From a virus: 38,579 nt of DNA. Within the stretch, counting starts at the first letter, position 1. Every line of letters starts with the position of its first letter. The notes beneath the pieces are model-generated. The model was given only the letters and a program-made list of their open reading frames with translations. It was not told the DNA's origin and made no database searches. Below, piece by piece: positions 2,484 to 6,236 of the stretch. Location: the IMG/VR virus record IMGVR_UViG_3300043119_000129, positions 1 through 38,579 of that record. One strand, given 5' to 3'. The position numbers and the translations under genes are program-made.

Positions 2484-3236
2484 TTATAGCCTAGATACCA
2501 TTCGGTTAATTATACGGTTAAAGTGCAGCGGCAGACTGTAAGCGACCTGCTTCTGTCCAACGCCAAAATAATCATAACGCTTCTTATATGGCCTTCTTGT
2601 CTTGGTATTTACAAGCATTATTTTAATGTCCTTGCCACGGCGCTCTGCAATTCCGATAGGAACGCCCTCGCGCTTCATAACAAAGAAGCTGATGTTCTTA
2701 CGATTCCGCTGCTTGCCCTTGGGCATTGCGCTACGGGCAGTCTCAGACAATGCGCCAACAGCCGCCAGCATTTCACTATACCGAGCGCCATTGATGTCAC
2801 CGCCTGATCCACGGGGATAGTTTCTACCTTGGACAGTGTCTTGTGTTCCAAGCAAAGCCACCCGATCCTGTAATCGCCTCTCAGACGCCTTACGCGACCT
2901 TAGCCCACCAAACACATGCGGCTTGACGATGCTCTCAGGCGAACCAGTGCCACCAAAATATTCAAAGTAAGTTCCAGCCTTCAATACACCCTGACCAAAT
3001 CTGGCCCTGTTCGATTGACCCTCACGGCCACCAGGGTAGCTTTTCTTCAAGCCCTTCAGCACATATGGCGATGGATTATTAAAGACAGACTTCATCTCCA
3101 ACTCTTGCCGAGTGTAGAGATCGTCCACGGTATCAGACAAAGCGCCCACAATAGCCTTGCGGATCATATTAGGCGTTTCAGCAAGGACCTTTAAGCCCCT
3201 GTCGAAGTCGCTTGTCTCAACCCGCATTGCTAACAT
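2484..3236 (-). CDS. Putative virion protein (minor tail/tail completion-like), 250 aa
   Basis: The sequence matches a pattern I recall from many phage and prophage proteins: an N-terminal helical region (RGLKVLAETPNMIRKAIVGAL), then MKSVFNNPSPYVLKGL, a central HVFGGLR..K..ERRL element, and a C-terminal RPYKKRYDYFGVGQK. Such proteins are usually listed as hypothetical or as minor tail proteins; the structural role is therefore tentative. I chose the ATG at 3236 because it overlaps the upstream stop as TGATG and follows GAGGACATAGACTG; an in-frame codon ten positions earlier is less likely. It is odd that a virion-like gene lies in the early region, far from the late operon. Confidence 0.55.
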   Translation of the reverse strand: MLAMRVETSDFDRGLKVLAETPNMIRKAIVGALSDTVDDLYTRQELEMKSVFNNPSPYVLKGLKKSYPGGREGQSNRARFGQGVLKAGTYFEYFGGTGSPESIVKPHVFGGLRSRKASERRLQDRVALLGTQDTVQGRNYPRGSGGDINGARYSEMLAAVGALSETARSAMPKGKQRNRKNISFFVMKREGVPIGIAERRGKDIKIMLVNTKTRRPYKKRYDYFGVGQKQVAYSLPLHFNRIINRMVSRL

Positions 3237-3424
3237 CAGTCTATGTCCTCGAACTCGCCACACCAATTAAAGGGTGAAGTCACTGGATTGAAAAACTTGG
3301 CCCGACCTTCTGCATCCATGTTTGTGAACACGGGCGGAAATCTTTTGCAGAAACCGTGGCTACCAGAAGGGCTTCCCTGAAAGAACAAACACTGCCCACA
3401 AGACTCATCATTATTCTTACTCAT
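3236..3424 (-). CDS. Small Cys-rich (zinc-binding-like) protein, 62 aa
   Basis: The protein starts MSKNNDESCGQCLFF and carries C-x2-C, a further cysteine in GFCKRFPPVF, and a last cysteine in FNWCGEFED. Four cysteines around a short core suggest a single zinc site. The ATG at 3424 is preferred over one five codons upstream because AAAGGGA lies just before it. Its stop overlaps the next gene as TGATG. A related arrangement (C-x2-C-x2-F, C, PP, C, W) occurs in the 64-aa protein at 10819. No function is known. Confidence 0.6.
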   Translation of the reverse strand: MSKNNDESCGQCLFFQGSPSGSHGFCKRFPPVFTNMDAEGRAKFFNPVTSPFNWCGEFEDID

Positions 3425-3501
3425 AACATCCCTTTCCACATACCTAATTCTATATCACCAGAGGTCCAATGACAAGTGGTCAGGACACCCCGCAGGACAG
3501 A

Positions 3502-3670
3502 GTGGACAAGTGGACAACACCTATAGGTGTGTTGTCCTGTCCGTCCACCCCTGCCTACCTTGCCCCTACCTTGTCCACCTTCTTGTCCACCCCTACCTAA
3601 AAACCGCAGAAAAGCGTCAGTTTAGGTGGACAAGTTCTGTTTTGTCCACCCTTGTCCACCCTTGTCCACC
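3502..3670. repeat. TTGTCCAC repeat cluster, candidate replication origin
   Basis: Eight exact copies of TTGTCCAC or its complement occur: reversed at 3502-3509, 3510-3517 and 3626-3633; forward at 3571, 3583, 3642, 3652 and 3662. The last three form TTGTCCACC units with an exact 10-bp period. A hairpin-capable dyad (CACCTATAGGTG inside GGACAA/TTGTCC) lies at 3512-3537. TTGTCCACC matches the DnaA box TTATCCACA at 7 of 9 positions. The cluster fills the space between the primase gene stop and the next ORF, and the operon upstream encodes a DnaA domain IV-like protein, so an origin role is plausible but not proven. No gene is seen from 3425 to 3672. Confidence 0.6.
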
Positions 3671-3672
3671 CC

Positions 3673-5691
3673 CTATTTATACTCACTTCTTGAAATCATC
3701 ATGGACGAGGCATTTTCAGGGCAAATAACCACCCATCCATGCTCATGTCTGCTCACCATTTCGCTCACAACAAGCGTCCCAATCAGCCTATTGGTCTGGC
3801 TCTCCTGACACATTTTCTTTGCCGCATCTTCATTCTTAGCCAAGCCCTCTTTCATGATATGATCTATCAGGGCAGAGCGAGACAGGTACGGCATGTCATC
3901 CCTGACTTCGCGCCCAGCCTTATGCCAAGCGCCATCAAATATCTTGAAGTTGCTTTTGTGCTTTGCTTCTTTGCGTGTCTCAGGCGGAGCCTCAGTTTGC
4001 ATTATAACCGCACTGGACACTTGCTCACCATCTTCATCGAACCAGCCGTTGATCTGTACAAGTTCCAGTACAGCATAGACAGGCTTTGCCTCTTCGGCAT
4101 CCTTGGACTTGCGCTGGACGATCTGGATAGGTCCGTCGCCCTTGGCTGGGACAACACTGATTTCGATTTCGAGAGCGCCCTTCCATGCTGACGATCCACG
4201 CGCACGGTGCTGGGCCTCATCTGACACGCCAGTGTGATGGACAAGGATGATGCTGCAACCGAACTCACGCATAAGCGCAGCACAGGCATCAATCATTGTT
4301 TTGGCATCCTGTGCGCTGTTCTCGTCGCCGGACAGGAACCTGTGCAGGGTATCGACCACAATAACACTGGGCGGATGTGGCAGCGCCCTGATGGCCTCGA
4401 CCACCTTCATGTAGCCTTCAGGCGTGTTCAGATCGCAGCCAGCCTTGGACAGCCACATATTGACGCTGGATACGCCGTGGTGCTGTTTCCATGCCGAGAT
4501 ACGCGAACGCAGACCGTGATGACCCTCACCAGCCAGATAGACCACCGTGCCGTTCTTAACCCTGTGACCGTTCCAATCGGTCAGGCTGGAAGCTATGTGC
4601 AGACACCAATCAAGGGCCACGAAGGTCTTGCCTCCGCCTGACGGCCCGTGGATCATGATAAGGGCATCATCCTGTATCCAGTTCTTGACCATCCACTTGA
4701 TAGGGGCTGGCTTAGTGCAGAACTCGTCGGCTGGGATAAGCCAATCCGAAACTGGTGGAATCAGCAGGACGGATAAGTCGCCCCCTGCTGCCACATAATC
4801 GTTCGCATCGCCCTGGAAGGGTGGCATGATGGTCCGCGCACCAAACTTGGCTGATGCTTGGTCAGCATATTTCTGACCCGTGTTGGACGCATCATTGTCC
4901 GCCACGATGACGATTTCTTGGGTTGGGCCGTATTTGTCCCGCGCCTCACCAGTTACAGGAACAAGGTTCGACGCCGAATAGGCCACAAGGCATGGGCGAC
5001 CCGTTACCTGATGGATAGTGGCTGCTGTGGCAAAACCTTCGGCCACATATACAACCCCAGGCTCGTCCATTGTCCCGACCATCCAAGAGCAGCCGCCTGT
5101 CTGTCCGCCAGCATGGTATAACTTGCCACCCTCACGATCTATGTATTGCAGAGAGGATAGTTTGCCGTTGGGACTGAACAAGGGAACAACCAGCCGTCCG
5201 TCGCCTGTGACCCTCGCGCCATTGACGCCAATGCCTTTGCGGGAAAGATACGGGTGATCCGGATGGGCAGCGGTTGCCTCTGACCAAATCTTCTCGACGG
5301 TGTTCGATGCCACCTCCCGCGATTTAGCCAGTTCGATGTCCCGTGCGGCCTTGGCCTCTGACATGCGCCGGACATTTGCCATCTCTTCGGATGGTGTCAG
5401 CTTACGGCCAACGTCTGCCCTCCATGTCATTTCCATGCCAGCCCTCCAGCAGCCGAAGCGGCCAGCGGGAACGCCATCACCATAGGCAATATACCAGCCG
5501 GACTTATCGTGTCCGCCCTTGCCTTTGGTTCCGGAGTTGAAGCGGTGCATCTTACCATCAAGGACAATGTCCTTGGGCGGTGTTATGCCGCTGTTCTCTA
5601 TGGCGTCACGAAGCTGTAGTTCCGGTGGGTCAGCCTTTACCTCTGCTGGCGGCGACCATGAGCCGCCCAAGATGTTTGTTAGATCAGCCAT
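3673..5691 (-). CDS. Bifunctional primase-helicase (Toprim + RepA/AAA_25-type ATPase), 672 aa
   Basis: The middle of the protein holds a Toprim module: VYVAEGFATA near residues 214-223 (catalytic E218) and VIVADND near 261-267, metal-binding acidic residues typical of phage and plasmid primases. A RecA-fold ATPase follows: Walker A GPSGGGKT at 349-356, Walker B SVIVVDT near 442-448 and LVHHTG at 483-488, as in RepA-type replicative helicases. The N-terminal 130 residues resemble the uncharacterised domain often found before Toprim; the last 120 residues look like winged-helix DNA-binding sequence. The start overlaps the DnaA-like gene by 8 bases. The protein probably primes and unwinds phage DNA for host DNA polymerase. 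Confidence 0.88.
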   Translation of the reverse strand: MADLTNILGGSWSPPAEVKADPPELQLRDAIENSGITPPKDIVLDGKMHRFNSGTKGKGGHDKSGWYIAYGDGVPAGRFGCWRAGMEMTWRADVGRKLTPSEEMANVRRMSEAKAARDIELAKSREVASNTVEKIWSEATAAHPDHPYLSRKGIGVNGARVTGDGRLVVPLFSPNGKLSSLQYIDREGGKLYHAGGQTGGCSWMVGTMDEPGVVYVAEGFATAATIHQVTGRPCLVAYSASNLVPVTGEARDKYGPTQEIVIVADNDASNTGQKYADQASAKFGARTIMPPFQGDANDYVAAGGDLSVLLIPPVSDWLIPADEFCTKPAPIKWMVKNWIQDDALIMIHGPSGGGKTFVALDWCLHIASSLTDWNGHRVKNGTVVYLAGEGHHGLRSRISAWKQHHGVSSVNMWLSKAGCDLNTPEGYMKVVEAIRALPHPPSVIVVDTLHRFLSGDENSAQDAKTMIDACAALMREFGCSIILVHHTGVSDEAQHRARGSSAWKGALEIEISVVPAKGDGPIQIVQRKSKDAEEAKPVYAVLELVQINGWFDEDGEQVSSAVIMQTEAPPETRKEAKHKSNFKIFDGAWHKAGREVRDDMPYLSRSALIDHIMKEGLAKNEDAAKKMCQESQTNRLIGTLVVSEMVSRHEHGWVVICPENASSMMISRSEYK

Positions 5692-5920
5692 TTTCAGCCG
5701 CCAAAATCTGTAACGATGTCACGATGCTGCTATGGTCCCTATTCATTATGCGCCCAATCTCAGTGGTTGAAAAGCCCTTGGCGCGTAGCATTCCTATGCA
5801 CTCACGCCGTACTGCTACCATTTTCTTAAACCGTCTAGGGCCAAGCATGTCCTCGACGGTGTATCCATATTTATATGCTATTTCGCCAATTGCTGCGAGG
5901 TTCTTTTCCCGTGGTGTCAT
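5684..5920 (-). CDS. Stand-alone DnaA domain IV-like DNA-binding protein, 78 aa
   Basis: Nearly the whole protein aligns by eye with the C-terminal DNA-binding domain of DnaA: an AIGEIAYKYGYTVEDMLGP helix, a basic loop RRFKKMVAVRR, then FSTTEIGRIMNRDHSSIV. NRDHSSIVTS at 60-69 corresponds to the DnaA signature GGRDHTTVLHA, keeping the Asp-His that contact the DnaA box. There is no AAA+ domain. I chose the ATG at 5920 because GGAG lies nine bases upstream; in-frame starts further upstream lack a good site. It overlaps the primase gene by 8 bases. It may bind the TTGTCCAC repeats or host DnaA boxes and steer replication initiation. Confidence 0.8.
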   Translation of the reverse strand: MTPREKNLAAIGEIAYKYGYTVEDMLGPRRFKKMVAVRRECIGMLRAKGFSTTEIGRIMNRDHSSIVTSLQILAAENG

Positions 5921-5942
5921 TATATATTGCTCCATTTTAAAA

Positions 5943-6119
5943 TTACTCACCTTCACCAATCAGATAACCAGCTAAACGATTAAGCGTGTCGATCTTGGGG
6001 TTTTCTTCCTTGCCGTCCCTTATGCGGGTAACGGTGTTGACATGCAGACCAGTGCGCTCCGCAACTACCTTGGGCCTTCTATCTAGCAAGGCCTGTCTAA
6101 TCCATGCAATTTCGATCAT
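5943..6119 (-). CDS. Small HTH transcriptional regulator (Cro/XRE-like), 58 aa
   Basis: The protein contains a clear HTH: KVVAERTGLHVNTVTRIRDG at about residues 17-36, followed by KIDTLNRLAGYL, typical of XRE/Cro proteins. The ATG is preceded by AAGGAG eight bases upstream. It is the first gene of the leftward replication operon and faces the rightward recombination operon across about 117 bases, the classical position of an early switch regulator. It is as small as lambda Cro and lacks a separate effector domain. Binding to the TTTACA/TGTAAA dyad at 6153-6178 is an inference. Confidence 0.75.
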   Translation of the reverse strand: MIEIAWIRQALLDRRPKVVAERTGLHVNTVTRIRDGKEENPKIDTLNRLAGYLIGEGE

Positions 6120-6236
6120 TAGCTATACTCCTTTTTAATGTTATTTTTCTCCTTTACATATCAAAATTTGGCTGTAAAGACATTTCTACGCACTAACTGG
6201 ATAGTCCGAATTGTGCTGAAACGAAAGGAGCCTTCA
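6120..6236. promoter_or_regulatory. Divergent control region with TTTACA-N14-TGTAAA dyad
   Basis: This spacer separates the divergently transcribed HTH gene and recombination operon. It contains an inverted pair TTTACA (6153-6158) and TGTAAA (6173-6178), with half-sites 20 bp apart centre to centre and an AT-rich core. Two AAGGAG-like sequences face left and GAAAGGAG faces right at the two start codons. Promoters must lie here, but I could not pick convincing -35/-10 pairs by eye. Confidence 0.5.

Follow-up and report, generated by a model that had tools for sequence, protein, structure and literature searches.

A variable iteron array behind a phage primase-helicase gene as a probable replication origin

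RESULTS AND DISCUSSION

A repeat array directly behind a primase-helicase gene

The DNA analyzed here (hereafter, the window) is a 38,579-nt stretch of a virus record. On its minus strand, at positions 3673–5691, it encodes a 672-amino-acid primase-helicase, the proposed initiator, in which Pfam recognized a Toprim_3 domain (residues 214–304, window positions 4780–5052; E-value 2e−13) and an AAA_25 domain (residues 321–490, window positions 4222–4731; E-value 3.5e−37). The Pfam matches of this protein included neither an SF3 family nor a Rep_3 or RepA_N domain, and Toprim_3 stands in the place of the archaeo-eukaryotic primase of pRN1-type proteins. Directly upstream on the same strand, within what a preliminary description of this DNA took as the same operon, lies a gene for a DnaA-like protein consisting of DnaA domain IV only (positions 5684–5959, 91 amino acids as listed; Pfam Bac_DnaA_C, E-value 3e−8), for which its relatives suggest Met14 as the start. 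The upstream neighbor, also on the minus strand, encodes a 59-amino-acid XRE-like helix-turn-helix protein (positions 5943–6122, coordinates derived by hand from offsets).

The gap between the primase-helicase stop codon (position 3673) and the next gene (positions 3236–3439, 67 amino acids) is occupied by a repeat array, which starts a few bases past the stop codon. The full window contains eight exact copies of the box TTGTCCAC on both strands, every one within positions 3502–3669; 1.1 copies were expected per shuffled window, none of 100 shuffles reached eight, and the exact box was not clustered anywhere else in the window. On the strand of the primase gene, the box reads GGTGGACAAG. With four weaker copies located by the motif finder (positions 3541–3548, 3532–3539, 3493–3500, and 3476–3483), the array comprises 12 boxes at positions 3476–3669. 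Their consensus, read on the primase strand, is GTGGACAA, and they form two groups arranged about a spacer and a dyad. Three direct boxes on the minus strand, directly behind the stop codon (positions 3642–3669), have an exact 10-bp period (3642, 3652, and 3662), as had been described. The dyad, a perfect 14-bp palindrome (ACACCTATAGGTGT, positions 3517–3530), lies between direct and inverted boxes, and the 26-base dyad noted earlier encloses it at positions 3513–3538; read by eye, this larger dyad is imperfect, its arms differing by a 2-base indel. The array also contains three elements on the minus strand that are not boxes: GGGGCAAGG (positions 3558–3566), common to relatives with differing boxes; TCCTGCGG (positions 3490–3497), beyond the inverted boxes and GATGCGG-like in many relatives; and the spacer CTGACGCTTTTCTGCGG (positions 3604–3620), which separates the box groups and is almost constant among close relatives. 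Several short direct and inverted repeats lie beside a candidate initiator gene, the arrangement of an iteron-type origin. The array adjoins the primase gene as the preliminary description had placed it, but the leftward stretch, which it called gene-poor, holds further ORFs and is not obviously so. A search among phages for closely similar DNA returned one 121-bp match.

Arrays at the same place in relatives

Relatives of the primase-helicase were collected from virus contigs with four queries, the best 80 relatives being kept for each (the best 80 of 563 in the first). The whole set of 377 loci, window included, yielded 269 usable primase ends, 178 of them unique; seven loci without a stop codon and five that were too short were dropped, and the rest of the dropped loci had no strong primase match or were the window's own copy. 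In the 260 bp around the stop codon, the motif finder gave a median score of 61 for the 178 loci, compared with 33 in the in-gene controls (n = 178, maximum 49) and 33 in controls 1 kb downstream (n = 130, maximum 44), and 172 of the 178 loci scored above the highest in-gene control. For the analysis of covariation, 169 loci were used, nine being omitted for a partial protein or a motif score below 48 (L088, L096, L126, L130, L133, L149, L309, L313, and L341; in L341, GGTAAC-like repeats were visible by eye). The median distance from the stop codon in these 169 loci is 3 bp to the start of the first box and 188 bp to the end of the last.

The location of the array is thus constant across relatives, while the box changes at all sites in concert. 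The boxes of the different groups were GTGGACAA, GGGGACAT, CGGTAAC, GGGAAC, GGTACT, GGTACA, TTGACCCT, and TGGCCCCT, and further AGCCCCCT, AACGCCCT, ACCGTACC, AACGGACC, CGTATC, and CGTACC. Other elements stay fixed: GGGGCAA was found in 91 of the 178 loci (14 in controls) and GATGCGG in 50 (0 in controls). One array is a mosaic (L088, positions 1618–1779) that carries both close box forms, its primase-side half resembling that of the window and its other half those of L002 and L005.

Among named phages, full-length relatives of the primase-helicase are encoded by Salicola phage CGphi29 (57.6% identity), Idiomarinaceae phage 1N2-2 (51.6%), and Alteromonas phages PB15 and XX1924 (approximately 49%), and all four have the array; it is absent from the distant MW202475 (44% identity). 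CGphi29 (L386) is also reported to carry a TIGR-TasH RNA-guided locus (PMC12045711). The primase gene was also present on nine metagenome-assembled contigs, and the array was found in seven of the eight examined, L384 being omitted because it ends inside the gene. In the eighth, L383, the primase frame breaks after 99 residues, which may reflect a sequencing error or a pseudogene. L149 was the only full-length member of the 178 in which neither a recognizable array nor a DnaA box was found, which may be explained by a deletion or a chimeric contig. We found no published description of an origin for this primase family in a literature search outside most subscription journals and all preprints.

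Perfect DnaA boxes (TTATCCACA) were concentrated near the array, with 190 in 53,400 bp compared with 24 in 1,344,947 bp elsewhere. They were confined to one clade, occurring in 79 of its 90 loci and in none of the 79 loci of the remaining clusters. Being separate from the variable boxes, they provide the best independent hint that the array region is an origin. The proposal of the preliminary description that the array is a candidate phage origin is supported by this excess in one clade, by the arrays at the same place in the relatives, and by the fixed elements. In most members of this clade, body cluster 0 (the L142–L304 range), two or three perfect TTATCCACA flank the array within the 300 bp behind the primase gene, and host DnaA may help at these origins. 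Perfect DnaA boxes seemed to exclude the DnaA-like gene (0 of 9 versus 71 of 149 loci), but this was dropped as evidence: the perfect boxes are all in a single body cluster, so the pattern is a trait of that clade.

The box covaries with one helix of the primase-helicase

In the 169 loci, we related box similarity to protein identity segment by segment through the primase-helicase, controlling for residues 1–560. The partial correlation with the box was 0.539 for residues 601–640, 0.466 for residues 621–660, and 0.233 for residues 581–620, and it did not exceed 0.141 in any remaining segment of the protein. In 500 label permutations, the best value of all segments was at most 0.093, and within-clade permutations gave at most 0.161. 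Residues 641–672, which are nearer to the array in the DNA and equally variable, gave 0.105; therefore, simple linkage is not the cause of the tracking. Single-column values peaked at K626 (0.62), followed by M627, A623, Q632, D622, G616, and K625. The same pattern was seen in pairs of loci: at body identity above 0.90, mean box similarity was 0.635 if the helix segment was alike (241 pairs) and 0.429 if it was not (223 pairs), and the 15 pairs with body identity below 0.68 and segment identity above 0.80 had a box similarity of 0.685, compared with 0.458 for all pairs. When out-of-clade neighbors (body identity below 0.80) were taken for 153 of the 169 loci, box similarity was 0.578 for those chosen by five helix residues and 0.471 for those chosen by the nearest body.

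Individual residues corresponded to particular bases. Q626 was accompanied by GTA in 56 of 56 boxes (other residues, 7 of 113), N626 by CCC in 56 of 56 (otherwise 38 of 113), V626 by GGAAC or GGGAA in 26 of 28 (otherwise 1 of 141), K626 by GGAC or GTAC in 27 of 28 (otherwise 10 of 141), and Y627 by G(N)AAC in 67 of 77 (otherwise 0 of 92). On a tree of residues 1–560 from the 169 sequences, the box class changed 45 times and residue 626 changed 38 times, 31 of these 38 on branches on which the box class also changed (5.1 expected); the box patterns for both the residue–base counts and the tree classes were chosen after the boxes were known. In 11 array loci outside the set from which the rules were made, judged by eye, the rules held in 3 of 4 cases for K626, 1 of 1 for Q626, 2 of 5 for N626, and 4 of 6 for Y627. 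All three N626 failures were in marine phages (1N2-2, PB15, and XX1924), which makes the residue–base code context-dependent, and on these sequences it holds only in part. Sak4, considered as another candidate reader, showed weak tracking (0.126; 144 usable of the 169 loci). Of these proteins, it is the primase-helicase, through this one helix, that the box tracks, rather than the DnaA-like protein, the XRE-like protein, or Sak4.

The tracking residues lie in the C-terminal domain of the primase-helicase (residues 560–672, positions 3676–4014, minus strand), the proposed reader of the boxes. AlphaFold2 modeled this domain from a 74-sequence alignment with a mean pLDDT of 86.9 and predicted helices at residues 573–591, 605–615, 621–627, 636–642, and 658–671 and strands at residues 600–604, 646–649, and 652–655, a helix-turn-helix with a wing; the model of the L118 protein has the same order of helices and strands. 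The segment SRSALxDYL-turn-SEATAKQYLKPS resembles a helix-turn-helix, with the covarying residues on its second helix, and the proposed recognition helix (residues 621–627, positions 3811–3831, minus strand) includes residues 622, 623, 625, 626, and 627, which covary with the box. The top structural matches were mostly winged-helix proteins (SqrR, SmtB, HlyU, and the globular domain of histone H1/H5), with Z scores of 7.0 or lower; Foldseek returned no match with an E-value below 0.001 for this domain, and profile searches against the PDB and Pfam found nothing convincing and no solved relative. P4 alpha was not among the fold matches listed, which is no evidence of a difference. The matches are weak and no more than suggestive of a winged-helix-like fold; in the models, the covarying residues lie on one helix.

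Exchange of the C-terminal domain together with the array

Up to codon 608, the loci L153 and L235 share 99.77% identity over 4.69 kb. Beyond this codon, 417 bp, comprising the rest of the helix-turn-helix domain (approximately the last 64 codons) and the array, cannot be aligned, and past the array the two agree again, with 99.45% identity across the 183 bp that remain of the L235 contig. The exchanged segment corresponds to L153:6315–6731 and L235:4694–5063, and the similar flank resumes 225 bp behind the stop codon. Box and helix switch jointly in this pair, CGGTAACT occurring with ASAKQY and AGCCCCCT with RTIEND. Among pairs with body identity above 0.93, 88 of 369 differ in helix segment and box alike. 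Between the window and L325 (body identity 0.996), the helix segment is different and the box slightly so.

A bolder reading, to which we give somewhat less than even odds, is that approximately the last 65 codons and the array of approximately 200 bp make up an exchangeable cassette that sets origin specificity and is kept diverse by selection, as a phage equivalent of the incompatibility groups of plasmids, and that the recognition helix comes close to a residue-to-base code. The selective pressures might include, for instance, cross-firing by co-infecting relatives, or satellites or nucleases that target origins. Such clean exchange raises the question of why near-identical phages would carry mutually foreign origins.

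Proposed origin mechanism and alternative explanations

The fixed place of the array, the concerted change of its boxes, their tracking by one helix, and the exchange of domain and array together were all computed here. We consider it probable (roughly 0.8) that the array is the phage replication origin, an iteron origin behind its own initiator gene, with its boxes bound by the C-terminal helix-turn-helix of the primase-helicase. Under this reading, the protein would bind the boxes directly through this domain, with residues 621–627 or thereabouts as the recognition helix; its AAA_25 helicase would then assemble at the dyad and open it, the Toprim domain would prime at the opened origin, and a host polymerase would take over after priming, so that replication would start at the array.

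In the preliminary description, the array was instead taken as variant DnaA boxes bound by the DnaA-like protein of the phage, a self-contained DnaA-type initiation. The gene directly upstream of the primase gene is consistent with this, as is the identity of TTGTCCACC with TTATCCACA at seven of nine positions, which was confirmed; however, this likeness weighs little because the window contains 126 sites with two or fewer mismatches to TTATCCACA compared with 102 expected (2 of 100 shuffles reached 126), and no site with zero or one mismatch lies within positions 3432–3685. Moreover, the presence of the array does not follow that of the gene, as it would in a DnaA/oriC-type system. L103, L090, and L100 all have the primase-helicase and the array, but no match to the DnaA-like protein; in the first two, the primase gene is directly adjoined by a small XRE-like gene, and L100 has other sequence at that place. 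Conversely, in the search set beforehand for the same box in relatives with the DnaA-like gene, L004, L021, L022, and L338 proved to keep the gene and to have another box. In L004, where both genes and the array at the same place are retained, the box is GGGGACAT, and it differs from that of L005 despite nearly identical DnaA-like proteins; the DnaA-like protein of L002 is 98% identical to that of the window, and its box consensus is CTGGACAA. These mismatches indicate that the box is not set by the DnaA-like protein. The gene was present in only 9 of the 178 primase loci, the primase-helicase in only 6 of the 78 loci fetched with relatives of the DnaA-like protein (many of these contigs are short), and the boxes of the rest of the family do not resemble DnaA boxes. 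We regard this explanation as very unlikely. In 72 of the 78 fetched loci, DnaA-domain-IV-only genes occurred without a detected primase of the window's family.

A role as the operator of some small regulator, for instance the upstream-encoded XRE-like protein, is similarly improbable for the array. In the window as well as in the named phages, a small helix-turn-helix gene does adjoin the primase gene, but in the 51 of the 169 loci in which XRE-like genes were recognized by pattern, the partial correlation with the box was 0.058, compared with 0.364 for residues 601–640 in the same loci, and L004 and the window share nearly the same XRE-like protein and differ in their boxes. If the array were a transcription terminator or a structured RNA following the gene, this would agree with the palindrome and with the position directly behind the stop codon; however, a terminator scan found no terminator-like site at positions 3300–3800, an Rfam scan gave a single sub-threshold match, and the concerted switching of boxes in both orientations agrees with a protein-binding site, which leaves this explanation hardly any probability. 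A further possibility accepts the C-terminal domain as the reader and takes the array as a control or incompatibility site (for copy number, autoregulation, or coupling), with the origin elsewhere. Iterons frequently act in both initiation and control, and phage P4 has a separate control region, crr, with repeats like those of its origin. On the other hand, the exact box forms no other cluster in the window, which argues against this explanation, and the dyad, the fixed elements, and the clade-specific DnaA boxes point to an origin; we consider the control-site explanation unlikely, although it deserves some weight.

Comparison with known replication systems

The helicase of the P4 alpha protein belongs to SF3, and the P4 iteron has the sequence GGTGAACA, which resembles GGTGGACA. 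The window protein differs in its AAA_25 helicase, in the position of the array directly behind the gene, and in the high variability of the box across the family. Because the helicase is of another kind, we do not class the protein as a member of the P4 alpha group, although it would work in a similar manner. A published study describes P4 alpha as a single protein with a Toprim-type primase, a helicase, and a C-terminal winged helix that binds origin repeats (PMC4234260), and the window protein likewise has a Toprim primase and a helicase in one chain, followed by a C-terminal domain that may be a winged helix and may bind the repeats behind its gene. According to the same study, plasmid pRN1 and Bordetella phage BIP-1 have the origin region directly behind a primase-helicase gene with a C-terminal winged-helix domain, as proposed here, but their primase is archaeo-eukaryotic, their helicase is SF3, and they have a large stem-loop rather than iterons; no specific box is given for them there. 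At the iteron origin of RSF1010, iteron binding, helicase, and primase also cooperate, as described in that study, but through the three separate proteins RepA, RepB', and RepC (PMC4234260), whereas we propose all three functions in one chain.

Covariation of an initiator with its iterons has precedents. In the PLE of Vibrio cholerae, the DNA-binding domain of RepA is reported to covary with the iteron origin, to have been swapped repeatedly, and to work, as tested, only with its cognate origin (PMC8263062), in the same way as the initiator domain and array covary and swap in the window's family. However, that initiator is of the RepA_N type without a primase or helicase, and PLE is a phage satellite that has few variants rather than a large family of phages. 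Geminiviruses also have fixed iteron positions with diverse iterons (5–6 nt) in close relatives and a match to the cognate Rep reported earlier, as summarized in a study that itself questions the need for iteron identity in replication (PMC12548392). These are rolling-circle plant viruses with single-stranded DNA, and their Rep is unrelated to the primase-helicase.

If our reading is correct, one phage family would provide many naturally matched pairs of helix-turn-helix and binding site, and the approximately 45 changes of box class on the 169-sequence tree would be material on how a DNA-reading helix switches its target. Furthermore, origins in uncultured phages could be located, and in part predicted, from sequence alone.

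An exact-pattern scan of virus contigs yielded 29 stretches, six of which belong to the family (L082, L088, L090, L096, L100, and L103). Many of the other stretches were rejected as coding sequence of an unrelated phage protein. Three unrelated contigs (L098, L099, and L102) contain clusters of GGTGGACA-type repeats, and the cluster of L099 adjoins a helicase that shares 30% identity with the AAA_25 part of the window protein.
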